Virus record (IMG/VR): IMGVR_UViG_3300031630_000038 | Location: 1-22,248 of that record | Direction: 5' to 3' (one strand) | Origin: a virus | Length of the DNA: 22,248 bases | Part shown: one piece after another, positions 1 to 22,248 of the stretch | How positions within the stretch are numbered: position 1 is the stretch's first letter | Layout of the letters: the number at the start of each line of letters is the position of its first letter | Made by a program: the position numbers and the translations under genes | Notes under the pieces: model-generated | Databases searched by the model: none | Seen by the model: the letters and a program-made list of their open reading frames with translations, nothing else | Told to the model about the DNA's origin: nothing

Positions 1-3000
1 AGGAAGTTACAGAAGTTTCAGCTTACACATACCAATACATAGAGACTCTAAAAGCTCTAAAAGCGAATGAAGCTCTTATAGGTATAGTTGAAGATACATA
101 CGGTAAGTATGAAGAAGGTAAGACTGGGATTCCTGGTCAATACTCTCACGGAGAAAAAGGCATGGAAGTGTTTGATGGTGGAGGTATGATACATTTAGAT
201 TTCTATCGAAGAGTAAGATTACTTACAGACTCTTGGGGTAAAACTGAAGAGGCTGCATACCACGCAGTTATAAATGGTACAGCTTCAACAGCAGATGTGG
301 GTATTTTAAGCCCTATCAAGCCTCAAGTTATTGCTCAGGCACTAGAAGATGGAATTGACTTTAGAGTGGGTAACAAGTTCGCATTGTTCCCTATTCACCC
401 TAATCTATCAAAGGTATTAGATGGCAATACAAATACAACTGTACTTGATGCTTTGTATGAGGACATGAACACTAATAACTTAGATTATGTTGTTAGTGAA
501 TCAACCACTAAGATTGGAGCTAAGATGAATTCTCAGCTAAAGTTTGATGACTACATATCTGAAGATGGGTCGTACGCACCACTACAAGATACTACAGCGG
601 TTCAATCGTACCCACTTCAGTATTTTGGAGTTCAAATGGCCCCTAAAGATAAGAGGGGTAGTGAAGTTCCTGTTGGAACTCAGAGTATGGCAATGATGTT
701 AAACAACATCTTTGACGGTATAAATGAGGAGACCGGAACATCTATACTTAATGAGAAATACAAGGCTATGCCTTTCTCATCAGAGGAGTCTTGGGAAGAG
801 GCAGGAGATCGATACCACAGATTACATGGTGAACTTATAGAGAGGGAGACACAGGTTCTAGCTATCAAGCTTGGATACCAATATTCTCCTAGTGATAAAA
901 CTTTCCTTTTACTGGATAAGCAATTGTCCAGAGAGTTGATGAGAGACACCATCCTTGATGAGATGTCTAGGAGAGAGATTTCTGATACTATGAAAGAGAC
1001 CATCCTTACAGTATTTGATGGGGATATGAACTTGATGAATCAATCGTTTGAGAAGTCTAGATTAGAAACTATTGTTACCTCTATTATAACTAGCTCAATT
1101 GTTAGACGTAAGATGAGAGGTGAGATGGTAGTATTACAATCTAACTTTGGTCTACAGATAGACAACAAGGCGATGAAGCAGTCTAATGCGTCTGCAGAAA
1201 TTCAAGCCTTAAGAAAGCTTAAAGCTTACAGGAAAGATATATCTGATTCGGACCTACAAAAGATGTCACCAGAAGCAAGAGCTGAGTTCTTAAGAACAGC
1301 AGACACTCTTGCTATGGAGGTATACATGCCACACGCTTTTAAAGAGTTTTATGGTGAAGATATTCCTGAATACATAAAACTAACAGATGAGGTTAGAGAG
1401 GCCATTGGTTTCCGTATTCCTACAGAGGGGTATAACTCTATTGAGTACATAAAGATAGTTGATTTCCTACCGGTTGGTATGGGGTCTACCATTATTGTAC
1501 CTTCTGAAATTGTAGCGAAGTCTGGGGCCGATTTTGATATTGATAAATTAACTTTATATCTTCCAAACGTTGAGTTGGTAGGAGATACGTTGCAACCTAT
1601 GCGTCGTATAGATCCCTCAACTGCTACTGTAGAAGATGTTGAGTACCTTAGAAAGACAGACTTAGATAATTATAAGTCACTATTCTTTAAGACATTCCCT
1701 ACAAATAAAGCTCTAGAGCACATAAAAGATTTAACTGAGATTTACAGTAGTAAGTCTGCGGTAGAGTCTTTGTTTAAGGATTACGCGCAAGTGCCTGAGG
1801 TTAAGGCGTTTAAAGAGAAGTTAAAAGAGAAAAAAGAGACAGCTAGTAATATAATCAATCCTGTTGATAAAGCTGCAGCTTATAGAGCTATAGATAAGTT
1901 ACGTGATGATTTCTTAGATAGAGCTATTTCAGCTCCTCACACAATATTTGAAGGCGGGTCAATGTCTAACGCTAGGATGTTCCAGTTAGACATTATGGAA
2001 AGGTTAGCCGAAAAAGATAGACTATTACATGATAGATTCTTCAAGCTTACAAGTAAAGATGTTCAGACTAAGAAGTACATGCAGAATCAAGTGCAAAACA
2101 TTATGCGCGATATTCTTAAGCATCCATTATCGTTTGATCAACTTATAACCCCTGTTGGGGCCTTTACTTTAAAGGATATTGCATATAAAATTGATAAACT
2201 GGTCAACAAAGAAGACTGGGTTGGGGACGAGAGGGTTAAAAAGGACCTAGTAGATATGTTAAGTCTTGATAACCTTATTAGTACAGAGTTCATAATGAAT
2301 CAAACTATTGGGGGTACAGGTATTGTAGCCTCTAGTTCTACTCACGTAGCTAAATTACAGAGGGTGAACATGGCCTTCAATAAAGACGCCGGAGTAGTGT
2401 TCAATTTCTCGGAGGTAGACCCTTCATATTCTATATCTAAAACTTACACGTACAGATCGGATGTTACAATTAACTCTTTAATGCAGCAATATATCTCAGG
2501 GTATGTCGATGGTGAGAAAGATCCTTTTGTTACTTACGTGAATGCAGGTAAAGAAGGGGCCCCAGTACACATGGCATTAGAGACAATTGGACTTCCCTTG
2601 GAAACTGCATTGGCTTTTATGTCTCAACCAATACTGTTTGAGTATTTTGCACTTAAGAATGAGAATCAATCTCAGGCAGCAATGTCATTACCGTACGGCG
2701 TAGAGGCGTACAAGTCTGATAAAGATATAATAGCCTCTTTGATTACCAAGTATGGTGGAGTAGGAGGTTCAGTTCAATTGAGTGAGGAACTTTTAGCTCC
2801 ATATATAGGTAAGGACTTATTGGTTACAGAGGAAAACTCAGATAATGATGTAGTTGAGACTTTTGGGGATATAGCACGTGAAATTCAAGTGCAGGTATTA
2901 CAAGACTTTATACGTTATAAAGAGTATGCTAGACATTTAAAGAACCTAGAAGTTACACACTCATATGATAAGCTTAAACTTAAAAATGAGAGTGAGTCTA

Positions 3001-4475
3001 TCTACTTAGAAGCCCTGGAAAGAAAGGTAAGAGTAGATGGTATATTCACTGGTATAGGTGCACTGACGTCTAGTAAGAATTCAATGCTTTCATATGGTAG
3101 AAACGCTATAAAATCATCTACAAAACTATTAGAATCTGTAGATCTGAAGAACACATCTACAGCGCTTAGAGAGGTTTTTATTGGTAAAGCGTATGACATG
3201 ATAGAGTCCGGTTTATCTAGAGATGATATTACTTACACTCTAAATAGATTTGATAATTTCATAACAGCTAACTTAATACAGAGTGCTACTTATGGGGAGG
3301 AAACTATCTCTGATATGAGAGCTCGATTGTTCCAAGGCCCGAATAGTTTACCACGACGTATAGATGCTCTACAGAAGTCTGGAGAAGTACAAAACTTAGT
3401 GATAGATTCTCTACTTCCATTATTAGATCCATACATAATGGGTACTACTATGGCTACCGTAGATGGGTTGAAGCTGCATAGAGGGAAATATGATATTGGT
3501 ATGGTAGACATCTTGAAAGAATCTTTCGAGGACTTACGTTTACTGGCACCAGATATTCACCAAGACCTAGTTATATTCAGTGTATTACAATCAGGTGTAG
3601 ATTACAGTCAGAATTCTTTTGCTGCAATCATACCACCTGCAGATGTTGCTGCTATAACTAAGAATGTATTCGACGGGTTCTTAAACTCTTCAGATGTAGG
3701 AGGAAAAGCTAAAAGACTTTGGCACTCTTTCTTGGATAATAATTGGCACAACTCTGTGATCTCACACCAAGTGTATGTAGGTGATAGCAAATCTGCTATA
3801 TTCCATGCCGATGAAATAAAGGCTGACGCTAATGCATTTCCATGGGTAAAGAAAAATTCACTAACTTTGTCTAGAAAGGTGGGGGAAGTATATTCGTACT
3901 CACATTTCACAAGAAATAGAAAAGGTGATGACTGGCTAAGAGCTGGTAAGATGGGAGTTAAGGGTAAACTATTGGAAGCGGTAGGTTCAACAAGTATCAT
4001 ACTGACAAATGCAATAGAATCTCCATTAGGTCTTTTGACTAACAATGTAGATTTATCTAGAAAGATACTCAAGGGAACTAAGAATATGCATTACTCCTCT
4101 AGTAGGGTTGCAAATGGTTTGTATTCTTTAGGTAACCAGGCGTTAATAGATGTGAAGTACGCATCCAGAGGGAATAGCTCTGAAGTTATAAAGTCTGGAA
4201 GCTTAGGAAAGTCTCCAACTGGTGCTAGATGGGATAAAGCTACTTTAGCTAAAGCTTTAGGGTTCTCTTCATTAGCTCAGGCTAATAAGACTCCTGATTT
4301 AAAGGCCTTCTTTGCTGATAAGAGTCCTTTATTTATATCAAAATTAGATGTGCAGGCTCCTGGTAATACAGGGTTTGTTCAAGAATCATCAGAGTATAAG
4401 AAGGCTATGGAAGCTGAAACAGCCCCTCCTTCACAGGACCTATCAAACCTAACAGAACAATTAAAATGTAAATAA
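1..4475 (+). CDS. Giant virion-type RNA polymerase subunit, 5'-truncated by the window (crAss-like phage family)
   Basis: The frame is open from base 3 without a stop, so the gene starts outside the window; 1490 C-terminal residues are present (numbered here from base 3). The first in-window ATG (162) is preceded by 53 in-frame sense codons and is not the start. Residues 471-479 read R-I-P-T-x-x-x-x-S, matching the R-x-P-T segment of bacterial beta-prime. About 37 residues later, A-D-F-D-I-D (Asp at 510, 512 and 514; bases 1530-1544) followed by K-L-T-L-Y-L-P matches the metal-binding A-D-F-D-G-D loop of the beta-prime double-psi beta barrel, with Gly changed to Ile. Around residues 205-225 a segment with clustered Lys/Arg (M-A-P-K-D-K-R-G) is a candidate second, beta-like barrel; this is inference. 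The known family member, phi14:2 gp66, is a single polypeptide of about 2180 residues that is injected and transcribes early genes. The stop (TAA) is one base before the next gene, so the two are co-transcribed. Confidence 0.85.
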   Translation, partial: EVTEVSAYTYQYIETLKALKANEALIGIVEDTYGKYEEGKTGIPGQYSHGEKGMEVFDGGGMIHLDFYRRVRLLTDSWGKTEEAAYHAVINGTASTADVGILSPIKPQVIAQALEDGIDFRVGNKFALFPIHPNLSKVLDGNTNTTVLDALYEDMNTNNLDYVVSESTTKIGAKMNSQLKFDDYISEDGSYAPLQDTTAVQSYPLQYFGVQMAPKDKRGSEVPVGTQSMAMMLNNIFDGINEETGTSILNEKYKAMPFSSEESWEEAGDRYHRLHGELIERETQVLAIKLGYQYSPSDKTFLLLDKQLSRELMRDTILDEMSRREISDTMKETILTVFDGDMNLMNQSFEKSRLETIVTSIITSSIVRRKMRGEMVVLQSNFGLQIDNKAMKQSNASAEIQALRKLKAYRKDISDSDLQKMSPEARAEFLRTADTLAMEVYMPHAFKEFYGEDIPEYIKLTDEVREAIGFRIPTEGYNSIEYIKIVDFLPVGMGSTIIVPSEIVAKSGADFDIDKLTLYLPNVELVGDTLQPMRRIDPSTATVEDVEYLRKTDLDNYKSLFFKTFPTNKALEHIKDLTEIYSSKSAVESLFKDYAQVPEVKAFKEKLKEKKETASNIINPVDKAAAYRAIDKLRDDFLDRAISAPHTIFEGGSMSNARMFQLDIMERLAEKDRLLHDRFFKLTSKDVQTKKYMQNQVQNIMRDILKHPLSFDQLITPVGAFTLKDIAYKIDKLVNKEDWVGDERVKKDLVDMLSLDNLISTEFIMNQTIGGTGIVASSSTHVAKLQRVNMAFNKDAGVVFNFSEVDPSYSISKTYTYRSDVTINSLMQQYISGYVDGEKDPFVTYVNAGKEGAPVHMALETIGLPLETALAFMSQPILFEYFALKNENQSQAAMSLPYGVEAYKSDKDIIASLITKYGGVGGSVQLSEELLAPYIGKDLLVTEENSDNDVVETFGDIAREIQVQVLQDFIRYKEYARHLKNLEVTHSYDKLKLKNESESIYLEALERKVRVDGIFTGIGALTSSKNSMLSYGRNAIKSSTKLLESVDLKNTSTALREVFIGKAYDMIESGLSRDDITYTLNRFDNFITANLIQSATYGEETISDMRARLFQGPNSLPRRIDALQKSGEVQNLVIDSLLPLLDPYIMGTTMATVDGLKLHRGKYDIGMVDILKESFEDLRLLAPDIHQDLVIFSVLQSGVDYSQNSFAAIIPPADVAAITKNVFDGFLNSSDVGGKAKRLWHSFLDNNWHNSVISHQVYVGDSKSAIFHADEIKADANAFPWVKKNSLTLSRKVGEVYSYSHFTRNRKGDDWLRAGKMGVKGKLLEAVGSTSIILTNAIESPLGLLTNNVDLSRKILKGTKNMHYSSSRVANGLYSLGNQALIDVKYASRGNSSEVIKSGSLGKSPTGARWDKATLAKALGFSSLAQANKTPDLKAFFADKSPLFISKLDVQAPGNTGFVQESSEYKKAMEAETAPPSQDLSNLTEQLKCK

Positions 4476-4476
4476 T

Positions 4477-7400
4477 ATGTCGTGCAGAATAACTAGAAAT
4501 AATGAGGGATCTATAGAACAAGTCAATGATAAGTATGGACGGCCCTCTACTTTGTACGAAGAGATAAACCAATCTATCCACGACGGAGCGTTTGAAGACG
4601 TAGCCCTTGCAGCATACCTGCAGGCAACTCATGTCTCTGATAAGATAGAGCTTGAATCTGAGCCTACTATTAACAGTACCATAGTTACTAAAATCCTAGA
4701 CAATGTCCACGCGGATATGAATTCTTGGGGGGAACTTGGGCATCAAGTTAAACTTAAAGAGACTTCAGACACCTTGGAAAACAGTCTTGATTATTTCCTT
4801 ATGAAAATAGGGGTAGAGGTTAGAGAAGTTGACGTACTTAAGGATGAATCAGGTAACCCTGTGAGTGCTATGGGGTTGGCGGATATGACCAACAGAGTTA
4901 TACAGTTGTCTACTCAAGGTGCAGATATATCTACACTTTCAGAAGAAGCTGCCCACTTTTTAGTGGAAATATTACGTAGTGATGAGAACCCTTTATATAA
5001 CTCCATGTATAAGATGGTCGAGTCCTTTGAGATATTCAAAGAGATGGCCAAACCAGACAGCTTCTACTACAAGCAGTACGACGGTAACATGGATATGATT
5101 AAGCGGGAGGCTATAGGTAAGATAATCTCTGAGCATATAGTAAAAGGAAAAGACAATTTAGAATCTAAGGAGAAGCTATCGAGATTAGAAAGATGGTGGA
5201 ACCGAGTTCTTAACGCGTTATCCGGTATTTTTGGGAAGACAGTATCAGACCCTTTCATTAAATCGGCGATGCATATGTTCAATAATGACCTTGAGTCTGC
5301 TGTTAATATAGACCCAAGGACTGCACAGTTGACAGGGGTGTTCTATCAGGATAAAACCGTGGCAGAAACTCTCGAGATGATAAAGGACTTTGAGGGGAGA
5401 TATGAAATAGATAAAGTCGAGCTAGCAGATGTTACTTCCAAGGATTTAAAGAAGTATTTTGTACAGTTAGCTGGAGATGAGTCTTCTTTAGATAGATACG
5501 TAGGAAAGAAAGGTTCTATATACGAAGGCATAGAGCTTAAGATTAGAGCATCCGATGCTGCATCGATCATATACAATAAGAAAACCTCCAAGAGGTACCT
5601 CTCAGATGAGGAGAAGATTTTCCAAGACGTTAACGCTAAAGTTAGAATGTCCGTAGGTACTAAAGGTCACCTTATAATGGAGAAATTAGTGGATGTAGTA
5701 TTCCACAAGAAAGGATCTATAGGGAAAATACTAACCAGTGTAGGTACTACGTTCTCAGAGGCACATGTAAAGAAATTACATAAGTCTATGCTGCACTTGA
5801 AGTCAGTTATCGACGCACAACAAAAGGTTGTAGACCCTAAAGGTAAGTATACTATACTTCCGGAACAGTTCATTTCAGATGAGGCTGTAGGTATGGGGGG
5901 TACAATTGATTTACTCGTACTGTTCAGTGATAACTCTGCATCAATATATGATTATAAATTTAAGGGAACAGCGTTCAAGAATAGTACATGGTCTAAACAT
6001 TCTAAGAAATTAGAGGTTACCAAAGATATGTTCGCAGATTCTATCGAAGGGTACGATTCTCAGATCGGTGTATATAGAGACGCTTTACTATCTAAGTATG
6101 GTGTAACCTCTATTAGACAGTCTCGTATCATACCAATAGGTATAAAGTACAAGACTAACAAAAAGAAGGAACTTTCTGAGGTTGTAGAAGGTCTAGATGT
6201 ATGGACAGGGGATGAGAAAAATGACTCTCACTCTCTTGAGCACCTCCCTGTAGCGCTAGAGCTTACCGGAGATGAGAATATTGATAAACTATCTATGGCA
6301 GAGATGCGTAGATATAGAAAGCTTGCGGATGAATTATCTCACACTAAAGCTAAAGATAAAGAAGCTGTTGAAAAACGAATGGAAGCTTCTCAACGTATAA
6401 TTAAAACACTGAGACTTCACCAAGATGTGGCGCCGGCACTAGCTGAGGCCAACCGTCTGGTAAAAAGAGCCAATTTGGGTATGGGTGTAGAGGATGAGTT
6501 CATCACAGTTAAAGGTGAAGAAGAATTCAATCCTAAGTACTTATCAGAGAAAGAGCTTTTAACTATATATAAGGAATTAGTCCACTTCCGTGGATTTACT
6601 GAGTTGGAAAGAGTACGAGAGACGCTAGCAAAGAGCCCTAAAAGTAAAGCGCTTTTAGAGTCACTGAACTCGTCTACTGGGAACATAGTAACTACAATCA
6701 AGAGTCTTCAAGATGCCATCGTAAATAGGATGGATACCAAGGCTAGAGCTATGGGTATTAAGAGTTTTAAGTATAACAGACAGATGTCTGCTTTAAACTC
6801 GTATGTTAACATATCCTCACATTCATCTGCTTACAGTAGATATATGCATGAGACTATGGTTGTTATTAATGGGAAGGCCTTAGAGTTTGAAAAAGCGTTG
6901 GCAGGAGAGATTAAAGCAGCTATGGATGCATTAGAGTCCGGATCCATGACAATACAAGAGGGATACGCTAAGCTTATCAATCCATTGACACATAATTTAT
7001 ATGCTAAGTTTTCGCATGAGTTCTATAAGGACAAGAAAGCAGCTATATCTGAAGGTAATCACGCATGGATGAAGGCTAACTATCAAGTAGATGAAGAGTA
7101 TTACCAGAAAGAGTTTTCTAACTGGAAGAAGTCTACATTCAACATGATAGATAAAGAGTATCCAAATGCACCTGAGGCAGCGGCATCAGCTAAGAAGTCT
7201 TGGCTAGAGAAGTACGACGTTAAAAATTCGGATAAAGCTTGGGTTGGACCTGGTGGGACTTACTTCACAAAGATTAACGAAGAGGCTACCAGAGGGTATA
7301 TAACTCCAGAGTATTCGGAGATAGCTAATACACCGGAGCTAAAGCAATTCTATGACTTCCACGTTAAGAAGGTACATGAATTTGAGAAGAGGTTTGGTAA

Positions 7401-9375
7401 GAATTTAGGTCATACGTTCATAGGTAATGTACATAAATCGTTAGTAGACTCTGTAATTGAGGATGGTAACCCTTTTAGCACACTATCTAAGAGTGCTATA
7501 AATGTATTTAAAACTAGAGAGCATGAGCTTGAATTTGCTAAGGCCGATACAGATGGTTCAGGTATAAGACATGTACCAAGATTGTACACGGCGGAACTAA
7601 TGTCCGAAGATGCAGAAGGTAATGAGGTTATTGATAGATCTCTTAGGTCTAATGAATTAGGTAGATCACTTTACTTACTTGGCCAGGCTGCAATCCAGTA
7701 CGAGCTTAAGCATGAAGTACAAGATGAGATGCTACTTATAGAGGCTATACTTAAGGATAACATGATCGATTCAGTTCTAGAAGACGATAGAGGTAATACT
7801 ATATCGCAGGGACATCAGAGAGTTAAGACTGTATTTAATGCAGGACAAGCTAATGCAGAGAGTTTCACTGATTTAGTTGACAAAGCTATATATGGCATAA
7901 GCCTTAAAACTAAGGACAGTGTAACTGAGAGCGGTATAAGTTTCAATAAATCCATGCTAGCTCTAAAAGCCTTCCACTCTGTGGCAGCTTTAGGACTTAA
8001 GATGCCCGTAGCGTTAGGTGCGTTAGGTGCAGGTATTGTAGGGGTAAATATCCAAGGTAAAAAGGGTATCCACATAACAACCACCAATGTTCGAGAGGCA
8101 GAACTAGCTTTGATAGCTAGAGACCCAAAAGTAAGAGCAATTATGGAGCATTTCCAACTTGCTGTGTTGGATGAATCCAAGAGAAGGGGAGAAATGCTGG
8201 CATCTACTGTTAGGGCTAAATACTTAACAGGTGATAGATGGTTTGAATTCTTAGCACAAGCGGATAAGGTGGTAGATACTGTCTTAGCCGTGGCTATGTC
8301 CAAAAACCATGGTGTAGATGCGAATGGTAATTTAAAGCGTATGAACGAGCTCCCTAAGGGTACCTTGTCAATGTACGATAGTATGGAGCTAACAGAGAAT
8401 AAAGACGCTGTTTTTGGGGTAACAGATAGATACGCTGTTAAGATACCGGGGATGGAGGCAAACGCTTTCAACAACTTTAGAGCTCGTATGGCTACAATGA
8501 GTACGAAAGTAAAAGGTAGTGCATCCCCAGAGTCTATAAACACTGCAGGGATGACCATAATAAACAGGTTCTTCCTACACTATAGATCTTGGTTGCCAGG
8601 TTTAGCATTAGAGAGATTTGGTATGCTTAGATATGACCATACTTTAGAGCACTTTGATCAAGGAACAATGAGAGGTTTCTTTGGGAACTTCGGTCCTGAT
8701 GAGATGTTTGATAGTTTAGGTCAGGCTATTACAGCTGAATGGGCTTTGCATGAGTATGCAGGCGCTATACTTGTAGATGCAGGTAAGATAGCGTTGGATA
8801 TTGGGACCTTTGGTCTTACCAACGCGCATAAAATAAAAGAAGGTAAAGCTAGACGTGAGTTTAAGAACTTCATGGTGGATCAAACTATGAACGAAGAATT
8901 CGCATTTAAGACAAAGGAAGAAGAAGAAGCGTCATTCCAAAAGTTCTTGGAGTTGAAACGTGGAAATCTTAAGGGGTCGATCGCAGAGCTCAGGGCAGTT
9001 GCATTGTTAATGCTAACTCTTATGGCAATGGGAGGAGACTGGGATGACGACGGTAAGATAGATATTAACCAATCATGGTTGGGTCGTAAGATTCACAATG
9101 TATTTGGACGTGTATATAGAGAGACTGCAGTATTCTGGGATCTAACTGAATTAACAGGACCTAGGTCTACAGGTATTCCTTTACTAGGTTTAGCTCAAGA
9201 TGGTATAAAGTTGATAAACAACTCTATGGATGAGTTTTGGGATAGAGTAACTGGTAAGCAAGGGGTTGAAACTGATAGAGCAGAGGCTTGGTTCTATGCT
9301 TGGAAGTTCGCACCAGGTTTAGGTGGATTCGTTAAAACTCTTGAGATATATCCTCAGCACAAAAACCATAGATAA
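4477..9375 (+). CDS. Giant multidomain (polyvalent) phage protein with PD-(D/E)xK nuclease and zincin-like motifs
   Basis: 1632 residues; the ATG lies one base after the polymerase stop and has no Shine-Dalgarno. Residues 156-160 are E-E-A-A-H within a hydrophobic helix, resembling the HExxH helix of zincin peptidases but with Glu for the first His. Residues about 385-560 look like a RecB/Cas4-type PD-(D/E)xK nuclease: G-H-L-I-M-E (H398, E402), G-T-I-D (D478), then D-Y-K (D492, K494), and Q-x-x-x-Y (Q529, Y533). The long middle is charged and helix-rich. A Gly/Ala-rich hydrophobic stretch lies near 1172-1195 and another (L-L-M-L-T-L-M-A-M) near 1507-1518, directly before an Asp-rich loop D-W-D-D-D-G-K-I-D at 1521-1529. 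Similar giant proteins accompany the RNA polymerase in crAss-like phages and are thought to be virion cargo ejected with DNA; that role is inferred here. The gene ends 17 bases before the terminator hairpin. Confidence 0.8.
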   Translation: MSCRITRNNEGSIEQVNDKYGRPSTLYEEINQSIHDGAFEDVALAAYLQATHVSDKIELESEPTINSTIVTKILDNVHADMNSWGELGHQVKLKETSDTLENSLDYFLMKIGVEVREVDVLKDESGNPVSAMGLADMTNRVIQLSTQGADISTLSEEAAHFLVEILRSDENPLYNSMYKMVESFEIFKEMAKPDSFYYKQYDGNMDMIKREAIGKIISEHIVKGKDNLESKEKLSRLERWWNRVLNALSGIFGKTVSDPFIKSAMHMFNNDLESAVNIDPRTAQLTGVFYQDKTVAETLEMIKDFEGRYEIDKVELADVTSKDLKKYFVQLAGDESSLDRYVGKKGSIYEGIELKIRASDAASIIYNKKTSKRYLSDEEKIFQDVNAKVRMSVGTKGHLIMEKLVDVVFHKKGSIGKILTSVGTTFSEAHVKKLHKSMLHLKSVIDAQQKVVDPKGKYTILPEQFISDEAVGMGGTIDLLVLFSDNSASIYDYKFKGTAFKNSTWSKHSKKLEVTKDMFADSIEGYDSQIGVYRDALLSKYGVTSIRQSRIIPIGIKYKTNKKKELSEVVEGLDVWTGDEKNDSHSLEHLPVALELTGDENIDKLSMAEMRRYRKLADELSHTKAKDKEAVEKRMEASQRIIKTLRLHQDVAPALAEANRLVKRANLGMGVEDEFITVKGEEEFNPKYLSEKELLTIYKELVHFRGFTELERVRETLAKSPKSKALLESLNSSTGNIVTTIKSLQDAIVNRMDTKARAMGIKSFKYNRQMSALNSYVNISSHSSAYSRYMHETMVVINGKALEFEKALAGEIKAAMDALESGSMTIQEGYAKLINPLTHNLYAKFSHEFYKDKKAAISEGNHAWMKANYQVDEEYYQKEFSNWKKSTFNMIDKEYPNAPEAAASAKKSWLEKYDVKNSDKAWVGPGGTYFTKINEEATRGYITPEYSEIANTPELKQFYDFHVKKVHEFEKRFGKNLGHTFIGNVHKSLVDSVIEDGNPFSTLSKSAINVFKTREHELEFAKADTDGSGIRHVPRLYTAELMSEDAEGNEVIDRSLRSNELGRSLYLLGQAAIQYELKHEVQDEMLLIEAILKDNMIDSVLEDDRGNTISQGHQRVKTVFNAGQANAESFTDLVDKAIYGISLKTKDSVTESGISFNKSMLALKAFHSVAALGLKMPVALGALGAGIVGVNIQGKKGIHITTTNVREAELALIARDPKVRAIMEHFQLAVLDESKRRGEMLASTVRAKYLTGDRWFEFLAQADKVVDTVLAVAMSKNHGVDANGNLKRMNELPKGTLSMYDSMELTENKDAVFGVTDRYAVKIPGMEANAFNNFRARMATMSTKVKGSASPESINTAGMTIINRFFLHYRSWLPGLALERFGMLRYDHTLEHFDQGTMRGFFGNFGPDEMFDSLGQAITAEWALHEYAGAILVDAGKIALDIGTFGLTNAHKIKEGKARREFKNFMVDQTMNEEFAFKTKEEEEASFQKFLELKRGNLKGSIAELRAVALLMLTLMAMGGDWDDDGKIDINQSWLGRKIHNVFGRVYRETAVFWDLTELTGPRSTGIPLLGLAQDGIKLINNSMDEFWDRVTGKQGVETDRAEAWFYAWKFAPGLGGFVKTLEIYPQHKNHR

Positions 9376-9391
9376 TAAAGCAACACAACAT

Positions 9392-9418
9392 AAAAAGGGG
9401 GCACATAGGCCCCTTTTT
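9392..9418. terminator. Bidirectional intrinsic terminator between the two convergent modules
   Basis: An A5-G4 arm (9392-9400) pairs with a C4-T5 arm (9410-9418) around a 9-base loop. Because the arms carry an A-tract on one side and a T-tract on the other, the hairpin has a U-run after it in both directions. It sits between the stop of the giant + strand gene (9375) and the stop of the minus-strand gene (9419, inside the T-tract), exactly where two convergent operons need to end. Confidence 0.88.
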
Positions 9419-9862
9419 TTAATTTCTATCATCTAGATCTTGACGATACCTGTTGTTGAACACCAAGAACATCATGTTACACATAATATGTCCTAAATGG
9501 GGCTTTCCACTATCAGGATCTATGTCCTCACCAGCTTGGTAAGCTACAATGTGGCGCATAGCACTCCCCAACAGTTCAGAAGTAGGTTGACCCTTCTTCC
9601 AATTGTTAGGAGCGTACTTTTCAGCACCAAACATCAAGACTTCAACCATAGGTTCTAAAGACTCAAAGTCTATTAGTTCCCATGCCATCTTTCCTTGGTT
9701 ATATCTATCCGCGCGTTCTGAATCCATATCCATATCGCTTCCAGGCATAACATCGTTGATGTCTTCTAGAATATTATTAAGGGACAGTGCCTTTAATAAT
9801 GCTTTCATGTCCTGACTATGTTTGTTTACATAGTCGAACTCGTACTTCTCTTGCTCACTCAT
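9419..9862 (-). CDS. DUF5664-type dATP/dGTP diphosphohydrolase-like (MazG-like) protein
   Basis: 147 residues. The family pattern is visible in order: R-Y-N-Q-G-K (53-58), E-x-x-M-x-x-x-x-x-F-G-A-E-K-Y-x-x-N-N-W-K-K-G (about 70-91), and A-M-R-H-I-x-x-Y-x-x-G-E-D-x-D-x-x-S-G-x-x-H-x-x-H (101-125). The last segment contains the acidic and histidine residues expected to bind metal. Relatives are all-alpha NTP pyrophosphohydrolases common in phages, thought to alter deoxynucleotide pools; the exact substrate cannot be told from sequence. The first 45 residues are a variable acidic extension. Its start overlaps the upstream gene stop as ATGA, suggesting translational coupling, and it is the last gene of the operon, ending in the terminator. 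Confidence 0.75.
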   Translation of the reverse strand: MSEQEKYEFDYVNKHSQDMKALLKALSLNNILEDINDVMPGSDMDMDSERADRYNQGKMAWELIDFESLEPMVEVLMFGAEKYAPNNWKKGQPTSELLGSAMRHIVAYQAGEDIDPDSGKPHLGHIMCNMMFLVFNNRYRQDLDDRN

Positions 9863-11447: not shown

Positions 11448-12617
11448 CTACAAAGCATTAAGCTCCGCAACTTCCTTGTCAATAGAAGCTTTGTTTTGTA
11501 GTTTAACAAGAACAGCTTCAGCTCTCATTATGTTCCATTCTGCATCTGTTTGTTCAGCATACGTAGAACTGTGGTAAATCGATCCATTTACTCCTGATAA
11601 AGAAGAATGTACGAAATACTGCTTACATCTAATAGCTCCGTCTACATCACATGGAATTGCTCCAATATGCATAGGGTCTACAAAGATGTTGTGGATCTCT
11701 CCTGAGTAGTACGCGATATACTTAAGACCACCAAAGTGAAGACCTTTAACACATGAGATATTGTCATCTGTGTTTACTTGGTCCCAACTAGCTAATCTAT
11801 GAGTACAACCTACCTTGATGAAGTGTCCTGGAGAAGTAAATCCATTGTCTCCCTCACAGTAGAATGCATCACCACTTGTTCCCATAATACCGGGTTGAAA
11901 TAGTCTGTCTTCTACCTTCTCTGGTAAACCGTCGCCACTAATCTCTCCTGTATTAGGATCGAATGTTCTAGCATAGCGATCTACTGTTTCTCCGGATTCC
12001 ATGTCATACTTGTGCATAACTTCTGAAGAGACCTTGTACCCATTCAATAACCCTTCACGAGTAATCTTCATTTGGTACATAGTAGCTCTTTCTTCTGCAA
12101 TACTCTCCGATAAACCTTCCTCTTCCATTAACTGGTTCTTTAGAGTTGGGTGAACATACATCATATTCACAAAGTTAAAGAACTTACTAGAGAATTCTAC
12201 TCCTCTCTCATCCTTAGACTTCTTAGCTAGAACAGGGTTTCTCAACCATCTAGTCCACATCTTGATAAGGGGCTCCGTAGAGATTCCCTTATCCATAGAG
12301 TCATACAATCTATCCACTAATGCCTTAGGCATAGGGATCGATGATACAACACCTTCATTCTTCAAGAAGAACTCTCCTGTAGCAGGATTTACGTGTACAT
12401 TTGGACATTCACTCTCAATTGTAGAAGAGTAATCCACTACTGTAAGGGGTTTGAATTCCTCTAGAAGAGCGTTATACTCCTCCATAGTTTCTACTCCTTC
12501 CATTTGAACAGATAAGTCCATCATGTCAACATACAAGTCTTCTGAGTATGTTACTGCGAATGGGGTATCCCCATAAGAACCGCAGATTTTTCCTTCAATT
12601 ACGTTAATTGTGATCAT
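11448..12617 (-). CDS. rIIB: rIIB-like protein
   Basis: 389 residues. The C-terminal third carries the rIIB hallmark: C-V-K-G-L-H-F-G-G-L-K-Y-I (289-301), then I-F-V-D-P-M-H-I-G-A-I-P-C-D-V-D-G-A-I-R-C-K-Q-Y (311-334). This matches the family pattern in which G-L-H-x-G is followed by a V-x-P-x-D-V-x-x-x-P segment and a short beta strand. The middle contains a W-T-R-W-L-x-N-P segment (121-128) common in these proteins. rIIB works with rIIA; in T4 the pair is membrane-associated and overcomes exclusion by a resident prophage (Rex), but its molecular action is unsettled. The immediately upstream gene is the rIIA-like ATPase, 45 bases away, which strongly supports the call. A hairpin terminator follows. 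Confidence 0.82.
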   Translation of the reverse strand: MITINVIEGKICGSYGDTPFAVTYSEDLYVDMMDLSVQMEGVETMEEYNALLEEFKPLTVVDYSSTIESECPNVHVNPATGEFFLKNEGVVSSIPMPKALVDRLYDSMDKGISTEPLIKMWTRWLRNPVLAKKSKDERGVEFSSKFFNFVNMMYVHPTLKNQLMEEEGLSESIAEERATMYQMKITREGLLNGYKVSSEVMHKYDMESGETVDRYARTFDPNTGEISGDGLPEKVEDRLFQPGIMGTSGDAFYCEGDNGFTSPGHFIKVGCTHRLASWDQVNTDDNISCVKGLHFGGLKYIAYYSGEIHNIFVDPMHIGAIPCDVDGAIRCKQYFVHSSLSGVNGSIYHSSTYAEQTDAEWNIMRAEAVLVKLQNKASIDKEVAELNAL

Positions 12618-12650
12618 AGTTATTGGTATTAATTGATTGCTAATTTACTA

Positions 12651-12659
12651 ATTTTAAAC
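12651..12659 (-). promoter_or_regulatory. GTTTAAAAT box in the rIIA-rIIB gap
   Basis: The 45-base gap between the rIIA-like stop (12663) and the rIIB-like ATG (12617) is very A/T-rich. Just after the rIIA stop it contains GTTTAAAAT, the core also seen before the exonuclease and 120-residue genes, followed by a near-direct repeat AATTAG/AATTAG. It may be an internal promoter or a leader element for rIIB. Confidence 0.3.
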
Positions 12660-12662
12660 GAT

Positions 12663-15440
12663 TTACGCTAATGTTTCCCAAGTATCTCTATCTTTCGCCT
12701 TCAAGTAGATGAGGATTTCCTTTTCTAATTCAGGAGTCATCTCTTCATATTGAGTTAGACGTTCTATATAAGATAGTAGAGGTTTAACTTCATCTGCAAA
12801 CTCTCTCAAGTTTCCATACTCAGCTATTTCCTTCATATTTACAGCTACACTCTCTCCTACATCGGACAGTATGAATAGCTCTGCACTCTTGGCTTCTATC
12901 AGAGCTGCTTTATCATCCACATCTTTTATGGACTCGCAATACTCCTGGAATTGAAACACTTTCTCTACAGTAGTCATCACTGCTGTTTTTCTGATTCTCT
13001 CGAACCTGAAGGTAGAATACGTATCATCTTTACGTGCTCTAAGTCTGTCATACACCTCTTTAAGTTCAGGATGAAGTGCTTTCATACCGTGTAAGAAGTC
13101 GTAATCTTTTATATCTTCCAATTTGGAAGCGGTATACCATGATATTAATGAGTCGTCCATAGTGAATCCATTGTTAGGGGTTGATTGAAGAAAGAATTCT
13201 GATATGTGTTTACAGTTAATACCTTTCTTCATCAGCTTAACTTTGTCCTCACTTATACGTAACAGCTGTGGGGTGTCCCAAGTGTCCGATACCATATTTT
13301 GGTATGTAGTCCAAGGTTTTCCTGCATTTTCGCCAGATCTATGAGTGAACCTAGTAGCTGCAGAGTCATAGAAATATATAGGCTCTTTAGCATGGTCTGA
13401 CCAACTAGCATGGTTAGAAGATGGATACACACCACTGTGTGTAGGAGCCATATCACGAAGAAGCTCAGCTGCAATGTGCAACTCCTCTTCATCAGCCTTA
13501 GTACCATAATAGATCCTATTGTCTGTGACCATAAGATCCTTAAGCTTAGGCTCAACTTTATCCCAAGTATAGTTCTTGTCATCATTACGACGGTCATCCT
13601 CTCTTAAAGTGTAGGCTACTATCGTTTTGTTGACCTCTCTACGCTCGGCAGGGCTTAATCCACTGTTAACAGAATAGTTTGTAGCTGCTACTTCAACTTG
13701 TTTGAACTCAACTTCCCAATCTTCAGGAACTTCAACCTCATCATAAGAGTGATACATTGCAGACTTAGTAAGTTGCACCATAACTGCTGCATGCTTAGCT
13801 TTAACTCTGTTATGCTCTTTCTGTAAAGCGGCTTTAGCTGTACCAGTTGCACCAGAGATCTTAGGTAAGAACTTTGCATCAACATCATCCTTAGTTAAAA
13901 CCACCACAGAATTATGATTCCATGTGTCCGTAACATTCATGATGAAAGCATCTGTAAGTCTACTGAAAGGAACTTCGTCCTTAAAATATACATGCTTAGC
14001 ATCAAATCCATCCCAACCCATAAGCTCATGTCTAGACACTTCACCTTTACCGTTAGAAGATTTGTATGATAGCTTTGTAAGTTTAAAGCCTTCAAATAAT
14101 CTAGATGGTATGTGGTATCTGATTCTCTTATCCCCAGGGAATGTAGGCTTTATCATAGACTTATCTATAATACGACCTAGCTTCTCAAGGATAGGATCCT
14201 CAGTACTACCAGCAATAACAGAACGACACTTAAGGATCCATGCTAAGAAATCTGTCTCATTCAGCTCCTTCTGAACCAACTCTGTTGCTTCGTCAGACGC
14301 TGACTTGATAACACCTTCTACATATCTCTTAGTAGTCTCATTCCATATCACCTTCTCTCTCGATGGGGTAACATCTACACCTTCTTGCAGCACAGTCTCT
14401 ATACCATAGTCATCCATAACAACTTGTCTGATAGGACATTTGAAAGCTATAGGACCATACAATTGCTCCATCTCTAACTCTCTAAAGTCTACATAACCAT
14501 AGTTGATACCTGTAACTGCAGCCTTATTCTTAACCACCACGATGTGAGGTTTACTATAAGTTGAGTAGTCAGAGATTATCAAGTTATCAGTGTTGTAAAC
14601 AACGTTAGCCTTAAAGTGAACCTGTCTAGAGTATACTTCTTCCTCTTCGTGATCCTCTATGAAGAATTCTACATTGTCTATGTAACTTAACTGCTCTTCA
14701 ATAGCCTCTCTAAACTTGCTTCTGTTGTGCCTTTTAGTACCAAAGCTTACTTCGGTATAGTTTAGCTCAGAAGTCTCCTCATAGTAGACCTTATCCCCTG
14801 TTGTTAGGATAATGTGCGGGTTAGGCTTACCTTCCTTCACATTAAATGCAGGTATAATGAAATCAGTCTTGTAATTGTAACAATTACACTTAAACCTCTT
14901 CCCATTATGCACTGTTTCTATTGTGTAGAAATCTACGCCAGTAGATAGTGCAGACTTAGCTCCTAGACCAAACGCTCCAAAGTTCTCTGAAGTATTTCTC
15001 TTGGTAGAGTACCCTAATTCAAGGACCCCTTCAAGTCTTCTACCTCCAATACCAACACCATTATCTCTAACCTTGAAAGTATCACAGTATCCAGTACCGG
15101 TATGCTCTTCATATGTTAGGACAGATGTATTAGTATCTTGGTTAAGCTTGTCTAAATCATAGTATGTTTTATCGAAGTTACTGTCTTCGTATTGCTCTCC
15201 TCCTCTCTCGATGTAGTAGTCTTCCATGACCTTCTCACCTTTAAGAATCTCTAAAGCAATCTCTTTCTCTCTCTGCGAATCACACGCATTTGTCACTAAC
15301 TCTCTAATAGTAGAAGCTATGGGCATAGAATATTGGGTTGACTGTAATATGTCAAATACCATTTTCTCTGCACCTTTATTTATCTTCTTTGCTACGCCGG
15401 CAGAACCTTTTATAGGCCTGTCAATTGTTTTTATGCTCAT
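12663..15440 (-). CDS. rIIA: rIIA-like protein with GHKL (Hsp90/gyrase-type) ATPase domain
   Basis: 925 residues. The N-terminal 170 residues form a GHKL ATP-binding site: E47-x-x-x-N51-x-x-D54 in I-R-E-L-V-T-N-A-C-D (N box), D126-N-G-V-G-I (G1 box) and N-F-G-A-F-G-L-G-A-K-S-A (153-164, G2/ATP lid). A beta-rich region follows (about 200-330), then a long charged, mostly helical part (600-925). Length and layout agree with the phage rIIA family. The rIIB-like gene follows directly, and the start overlaps the upstream stop as ATGA (15437-15440), so expression is coupled. In T4, rIIA/rIIB suppress lambda Rex exclusion; an anti-defence or membrane-protecting role here is inferred. A gyrase/topoisomerase VI or MutL identity is unlikely because no matching transducer or C-terminal domains are evident. 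Confidence 0.85.
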   Translation of the reverse strand: MSIKTIDRPIKGSAGVAKKINKGAEKMVFDILQSTQYSMPIASTIRELVTNACDSQREKEIALEILKGEKVMEDYYIERGGEQYEDSNFDKTYYDLDKLNQDTNTSVLTYEEHTGTGYCDTFKVRDNGVGIGGRRLEGVLELGYSTKRNTSENFGAFGLGAKSALSTGVDFYTIETVHNGKRFKCNCYNYKTDFIIPAFNVKEGKPNPHIILTTGDKVYYEETSELNYTEVSFGTKRHNRSKFREAIEEQLSYIDNVEFFIEDHEEEEVYSRQVHFKANVVYNTDNLIISDYSTYSKPHIVVVKNKAAVTGINYGYVDFRELEMEQLYGPIAFKCPIRQVVMDDYGIETVLQEGVDVTPSREKVIWNETTKRYVEGVIKSASDEATELVQKELNETDFLAWILKCRSVIAGSTEDPILEKLGRIIDKSMIKPTFPGDKRIRYHIPSRLFEGFKLTKLSYKSSNGKGEVSRHELMGWDGFDAKHVYFKDEVPFSRLTDAFIMNVTDTWNHNSVVVLTKDDVDAKFLPKISGATGTAKAALQKEHNRVKAKHAAVMVQLTKSAMYHSYDEVEVPEDWEVEFKQVEVAATNYSVNSGLSPAERREVNKTIVAYTLREDDRRNDDKNYTWDKVEPKLKDLMVTDNRIYYGTKADEEELHIAAELLRDMAPTHSGVYPSSNHASWSDHAKEPIYFYDSAATRFTHRSGENAGKPWTTYQNMVSDTWDTPQLLRISEDKVKLMKKGINCKHISEFFLQSTPNNGFTMDDSLISWYTASKLEDIKDYDFLHGMKALHPELKEVYDRLRARKDDTYSTFRFERIRKTAVMTTVEKVFQFQEYCESIKDVDDKAALIEAKSAELFILSDVGESVAVNMKEIAEYGNLREFADEVKPLLSYIERLTQYEEMTPELEKEILIYLKAKDRDTWETLA

Positions 15441-21695: not shown

Positions 21696-21914
21696 TTACT
21701 TGTATCTAGTTAATAAATTATGTATCTCTTCGTCAGCCCAATTGTAACACTCGTTAGGTGTCTTAAATTGTTTAGAGGATTCAGTAACCCAGTTACCTGT
21801 CTTCTTACCTCGTTTATACACTCCGCATATCCACCCTGAACCTGCGTTAGCTAAAGGGCTGACTTGTACCCAGTATCCTATACCAAGGTGGTAGTCTATA
21901 TCTCTTTCGTCCAT
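21696..21914 (-). CDS. Small aromatic-rich hypothetical protein (72 residues)
   Basis: Contains G-Y-W-V-Q-V-S-P-L-A, S-G-W-I-C-G-V-Y-K-R-G-K-K-T-G-N-W-V and a C-terminal helix (N-E-C-Y-N-W-A-D-E-E-I-H-N-L-L). Probably a compact beta-beta-alpha fold. No motif identifies a function. Directly abuts the 69-residue membrane-protein gene with no spacer and is followed one base later by the 182-residue gene. Confidence 0.65.
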   Translation of the reverse strand: MDERDIDYHLGIGYWVQVSPLANAGSGWICGVYKRGKKTGNWVTESSKQFKTPNECYNWADEEIHNLLTRYK

Positions 21915-22124
21915 CTAGGATAGTTTAGTGAAGATTCGTCTGATTACATAGTTCCTGCACAGACTAGCTATGAAGAATACTATTGTAATTGTGATGTTTT
22001 GTTCTATACTAACTTCAATGTCTAGGATAGGGTATAATACCAATTGAATTACGAAGGATACTAATAACCCTATCACTGTCCCTACTATAGCCTCGATTAG
22101 GCTAAGTGTCTTGTTTTGTGCCAT
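21915..22124 (-). CDS. Two-helix phage membrane protein (DUF7220-like)
   Basis: 69 residues with two hydrophobic segments: S-L-I-E-A-I-V-G-T-V-I-G-L-L-V-S-F-V-I-Q (about 8-32) and I-T-I-T-I-V-F-F-I-A-S-L-C-R-N-Y-V-I-R-R-I-F (about 44-65). The pattern S-L-x-E-A in the first helix and S-L-x-R-x-Y-x-x-R-R-x-F at the end of the second is characteristic of a widespread small phage membrane protein family (DUF7220). Function unknown. The ATG is 2 bases after the stop of the partial upstream gene. Confidence 0.72.
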   Translation of the reverse strand: MAQNKTLSLIEAIVGTVIGLLVSFVIQLVLYPILDIEVSIEQNITITIVFFIASLCRNYVIRRIFTKLS

Positions 22125-22125
22125 C

Positions 22126-22248
22126 TTAGTCTTGTTTTAGTTCTTTGATTCTTTGATTCAATGCTTTTGCAATTTCCTCCACAATAAAACCATCATACAT
22201 ACTGTCAATCATATCTATGACATTTTCTAGCTCCTCTACACCTCTTTG
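22126..22248 (-). CDS. C-terminal 40 residues of a hypothetical protein (cut by window edge)
   Basis: The minus-strand frame is open from the right edge to TAA at 22126-22128 and encodes a charged helical end (E-E-L-E-N-V-I-D-M-I-D-S-M-Y, then N-Q-R-I-K-E-L-K-Q-D). Orientation and the single-base spacing to the next ATG fit the operon. Too little is visible to name it. Confidence 0.6.
   Translation of the reverse strand, partial: QRGVEELENVIDMIDSMYDGFIVEEIAKALNQRIKELKQD

Follow-up and report, generated by a model that had tools for sequence, protein, structure and literature searches.

The viral stretch IMGVR_UViG_3300031630_000038 (positions 1 to 22,248 of that record; here the window, meaning all 22,248 nucleotides) begins inside a large gene whose putative catalytic loop reads D-F-D-I-D, with isoleucine (Ile) at the place where cellular RNA polymerases hold glycine (Gly), which raises the question of whether this Ile marks an unusual enzyme. 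We are confident that the gene encodes a two-barrel RNA polymerase of the crAss-like (phi14:2 gp66) type and that its D-F-D-I-D loop is an ordinary one. The features on which this reading rests are as follows.

3..4475, + strand: predicted crAss-type virion RNA polymerase, last 1490 of its 2470 amino acids, 5' end cut off at the window edge; assigned through structure 6VR4 by phmmer, the family profile and the predicted fold.
318..512, + strand: candidate active-site lysines (Lys) K106, K125 and K170 (fragment numbering) of the beta-like double-psi beta-barrel (DPBB-B); every one of the 58 rows that have a residue in these three columns shows Lys there.
1314..1598, + strand: predicted beta-prime-like barrel (DPBB-A), limits approximate; fragment residues 438-532, with AlphaFold2 strands in register with gp66.
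1413..1424, + strand: R-I-P-T segment, counterpart of the cellular beta-prime R-x-P-T; R and P the same in all 59 rows, aligned with R-I-P-N of gp66.
1530..1544, + strand: putative catalytic metal-binding loop D-F-D-I-D; all 59 relatives keep the aspartate (Asp) columns, and the fourth residue is Ile in 47 and valine (Val) in 12 of this biased set.

Translation of the open frame 3-4475 gives D-F-D-I-D from GATTTTGATATTGAT (window 1530-1544, + strand), starting at fragment residue 510, just as an earlier note on this DNA had read it, with R-I-P-T (1413-1424) lying 39 residues upstream. An initial scan of viral contigs with the single protein returned the near-identical contig only, and alignments were then used as queries. 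That 48-kb contig, IMGVR_UViG_3300031683_000008, shows no differences from the window across the 14,472 bases compared and holds the complete gene for 2470 amino acids (L002:7061-14473), so the ATG at 162 is an internal methionine and not the gene start. The reading frame is unbroken across 2470 codons, and in full-length numbering the aspartates are D1490, D1492 and D1494 and the Ile is residue 1493. The right end of the window (21813-22248) departs from the otherwise near-identical contig, as a variant or an assembly end: the final 6,248 bases hold 79 differences, and only two of these lie before 21813.

Among solved structures, phmmer matched the polymerase to 6VR4 (phi14:2 gp66) at E 3.3e-14, while the other proteins listed were unrelated and matched weakly (E 0.043 and 0.9). 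A family profile made from the window polymerase and 58 environmental relatives (59 rows) matched 6VR4 across the catalytic core (residues 876-2035) at E 8.7e-135 with no second match, placing DFDID on DFDID and R-I-P-T on R-I-P-N. The AlphaFold2 model of fragment residues 1-1130 (mean predicted local distance difference test score 79.8; predicted template modelling score 0.81) likewise has 6VR4 as its top PDB match (Foldseek: E 4.5e-27, probability 1.00) and as its sole match below E 0.001, the next ones, mostly RNA polymerase II largest subunits, not being significant. Together, the model and the Foldseek match predict a single polypeptide with two double-psi beta-barrels and a gp66-like fold, in which the three Asp of DxDxD lie in DPBB-A, with modeled strands at residues 438-442, 466-471, 480-488, 496-499, 515-519, 523-526 and 529-532; the barrel limits are approximate.

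Conservation points the same way. Fragment residues G508, D510, F511, D512, D514 and K515 are invariant among the 59 aligned relatives, the window protein included, so D-F-D-I-D is no chance occurrence. The three Asp and the R and P of R-x-P-T are invariant in the same rows, in keeping with the earlier note's claim that these elements are preserved. Two-barrel RNA polymerases are known to have two lysines in DPBB-B (PMC4996933), and by analogy K106, K125 and K170 are candidates for a catalytic role. The note's assignment to the two-barrel crAss-like type, and its link of the window to that lineage, are borne out by the profile and fold matches and by a gene order shared with phi14:2; the structure prediction that it had proposed returned both the barrel and the similarity to gp66. 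Several points weigh against the assignment. Against 6VR4 the model has a moderate template modelling score, 0.59 on the query, which fits the 16% identity; Crassvirales capsid, portal and terminase are absent from the window, and none was recognized in the scanned parts of the 48-kb contig; and the support consists of sequence, homology, predicted fold, conservation and gene order, from which activity, packaging and metal binding are inferred.

Is Ile at the fourth loop position unusual? In cellular enzymes the motif NADFDGD is nearly invariant, as the earlier note had said of its Gly, and QDE-1 and plant RNA-dependent RNA polymerases (RDRs) keep DxDGD (PMC2605557); the window reads GADFDIDK instead of this Gly-containing loop. 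The same note took the Ile for a divergent peculiarity of this polymerase. However, gp66 itself, which the note had named as reference and which is the one member of the group with a solved structure, reads DFDID (residues 1361-1365), and the 18 named Crassvirales polymerases, from Steigviridae, Intestiviridae and Suoliviridae, all read DFD[I/V]D (Ile in 11, Val in 7). The 59 rows were gathered with motif-containing patterns, which biases their Ile/Val count, and the first environmental scan also relied on a pattern that included DFD[I/V]D, which makes it unfit for counting the fourth residue; the scan was therefore rerun with an alignment that stops before the motif. It yielded 80 loci, with DFDID in 46, DFDVD in 25, DFDFD in four, DYDID in two and DYDVD in one, so that 78 carry Ile, Val or phenylalanine (Phe) at the fourth place, two are interrupted at the motif and none has Gly there. 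Because the Ile/Val rule extends across Crassvirales, gp66 included, the change from Gly to Ile is an old, order-wide signature and not peculiar to this phage. Judged from the sequences compared, fourth-position Ile/Val is a lineage signature by descent, tolerated alongside Gly.

A scan aimed at the Gly form within the crAss context returned eight loci. Two of them, L186 (887 bits) and L188 (736 bits to the crAss profile), are crAss-type polymerases with SGTDFDGDK and R-I-P-V, the loop segment lying at L186:6433-6459 and L188:507-533. In the tree they group with L103 (DFDVD), deep within the Ile/Val clade, and a change from Val to Gly takes one base. This nesting suggests that the scaffold accepts Gly and Ile/Val interchangeably; by sequence comparison the fourth position varies within purifying limits, being usually hydrophobic and rarely returning to Gly. 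In both loci the motif is preceded by threonine, where the 59 aligned relatives have serine or alanine. Another four of the eight loci encode phage polymerases of the PF05183 type, whose loop segment reads SG[C/S/A]DFDGDK.

The catalytic DxDxD codons of some crAss-type polymerases are split by inserts, at L006:11325-11643 (cr108_1), L023:3270-4150 (bajarodcaudo virus 1), L145:2209-3109 and L147 after 2235. The group I intron model Rfam RF00028 matches above its gathering score in L006 and below it in L023 and L145; L147, although interrupted at the motif, has no Rfam match. One of the two interruptions in the 80-locus scan is a recognizable group I intron, and the L023 insert contains a frame annotated as an endonuclease. 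Disruptions within DxDxD have already been reported for zeta crAss phages (PMC7886860); the DxDxD of the window polymerase has no intron interruption.

The alternative that survives best, though we consider it improbable, is that Ile/Val is functionally selected in crAss-type polymerases, for example by tuning template or metal use, in which case L186 and L188 would be natural revertants with a measurably different enzyme. If selection of this kind did operate, the window would be one carrier among many and not the origin of the feature. Slightly less probable still is a function-changing Ile, whose bulk would shift metal or substrate geometry and give unusual kinetics or an unusual template or divalent-metal preference, as the earlier note had suggested. 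The near-invariance of Gly in cellular enzymes and in QDE-1 and RDRs (PMC2605557) speaks for it, as do the Gly of the PF05183-type phage enzymes L187, L189, L191 and L192, found via a Gly-containing pattern, and the retention of Ile/Val in crAss-like enzymes over very large divergence, which implies that something favors a hydrophobic residue there. Against it, the substitution is not specific to the window protein, two crAss-type enzymes naturally have Gly, and gp66, with the same loop, is reported to be active in vitro and to be responsible for rifampicin-resistant early transcription (PMC10136315). The loop is thus compatible with normal catalysis, which argues against a defect caused by Ile, and nothing in the sequences compared supports an impaired or altered catalysis.

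It is very unlikely that the gene encodes a decayed, inactive polymerase, or a structural protein merely retaining the fold. The protein diverges strongly from gp66 outside the core, and the pairwise match spans a small part of it, as decay would allow; but the three Asp, the R and P of R-x-P-T, the three first-barrel lysines and D836 show little or no variation in the 59 relatives, and the frame is intact through 2470 codons. That the open frame is no polymerase and DFDID a chance match, a notion encouraged by PHROGs and Pfam searches that gave no match to the polymerase, is refuted by the 6VR4 profile (E 8.7e-135) and fold (E 4.5e-27) matches.

Taking the gene as a gp66-type polymerase, we propose that one giant polypeptide bears two double-psi beta-barrels, that D1490, D1492 and D1494 of the second barrel would, by homology, hold the catalytic magnesium and that the first barrel may contribute conserved lysines. 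The enzyme would synthesize RNA on the phage DNA template. By analogy with phi14:2 gp66, it may be packaged in the particle, enter the cell with the DNA and transcribe the early genes, here probably the minus-strand replication block, without the host RNA polymerase. The Ile/Val at the fourth residue would be inherited within the order, with no sign of changed chemistry.

The gene order matches g067-g066-g065 of phi14:2, in which the polymerase gene stands between the genes of two large proteins and convergent genes follow; in the phi14:2 record, the annotation of these three proteins is backed by tandem mass spectrometry (MS/MS) proteomics, on which the presence of the phi14:2 polymerase in the virion is recorded. 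The giant transcription-gene block that holds the polymerase adjoins the tail block, as expected of a gp66-type enzyme. Two further features follow the polymerase.

4477..9375, + strand: downstream transcription-block protein (P0002), 1632 amino acids, in the position that g065 has in phi14:2; aligns over 93% of its length with the protein beside the RNA polymerase of cr108_1.
9392..9419, + strand: hairpin resembling a terminator, located where the transcription and replication blocks converge; 11 pairs with a T run after them, found on both strands.

In the 1632-amino-acid protein, the segment GGTIDLLVLF...IYDYKF weakly resembles PD-(D/E)XK (PDDEXK_1, E 0.0037, which misses the Pfam cut-off), and a conserved EEA[A/S]HF near residue 156 is reminiscent of a metalloprotease; both segments are also present in L028 and L029. 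The minus-strand genes are of replication type, encoding a primase, a Sak4-like protein, exonucleases, a Holliday junction resolvase-like protein, a dATP/dGTP diphosphohydrolase and rIIA/rIIB-like proteins, the rIIB-like and rIIA-like genes being adjacent at 11448-15440. Matches to sigma-70-like promoters are no commoner than in shuffles (44 vs. 37.1, standard deviation 6.2), so early promoters are not claimed; the repeats found in the replication half are weak and have two copies each.

In the tree, the polymerase groups with L027-L029 inside a large environmental crAss-like clade. Suoliviridae and Intestiviridae each form their own group, while Steigviridae are scattered, so the tree does not settle the family of this phage. 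The top-ranked named relative in phage records is cr108_1. As capsid, portal and terminase are absent from the window and were not recognized in the scanned parts of the 48-kb contig, membership in the order rests on the transcription block, the tail-block matches and the tree, and we would call the phage an unclassified crAss-like phage. The locus thus adds a divergent environmental crAss-like virion polymerase together with its flanking genes and corrects a tempting misreading, DFDID being already the group norm. Moreover, Ile, Val, Phe and Gly at one site in one enzyme family offer a natural contrast for asking why cellular enzymes keep Gly.

Compared with known systems, the window polymerase shares with phi14:2 gp66 the two-barrel single polypeptide, the DFDID loop, the R-I-P segment and the position of the gene in a block of three, after which convergent genes begin, whereas gp66 has 2180 amino acids rather than 2470 and R-I-P-N rather than R-I-P-T; identity between the two is ~30% for the catalytic region and 16% across the fold alignment. 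In Pipoluvirus rarus cr108_1 (Steigviridae), a homologous polymerase is likewise followed by a homologous downstream protein, to which 93% of P0002 can be aligned. L027-L029, from uncultured environmental IMG/VR contigs, have polymerases 45-46% identical to that of the window, a GADFDIDKL loop and a homologous downstream gene, but are separate phages. The PF05183 (RdRP/YonO-type) enzymes L187, L189, L191 and L192 share the SG[C/S/A]DFD-x-DK loop context and the two-barrel superfamily, but carry Gly at the fourth place, are at most ~1,100 amino acids long here and do not match the crAss profile.
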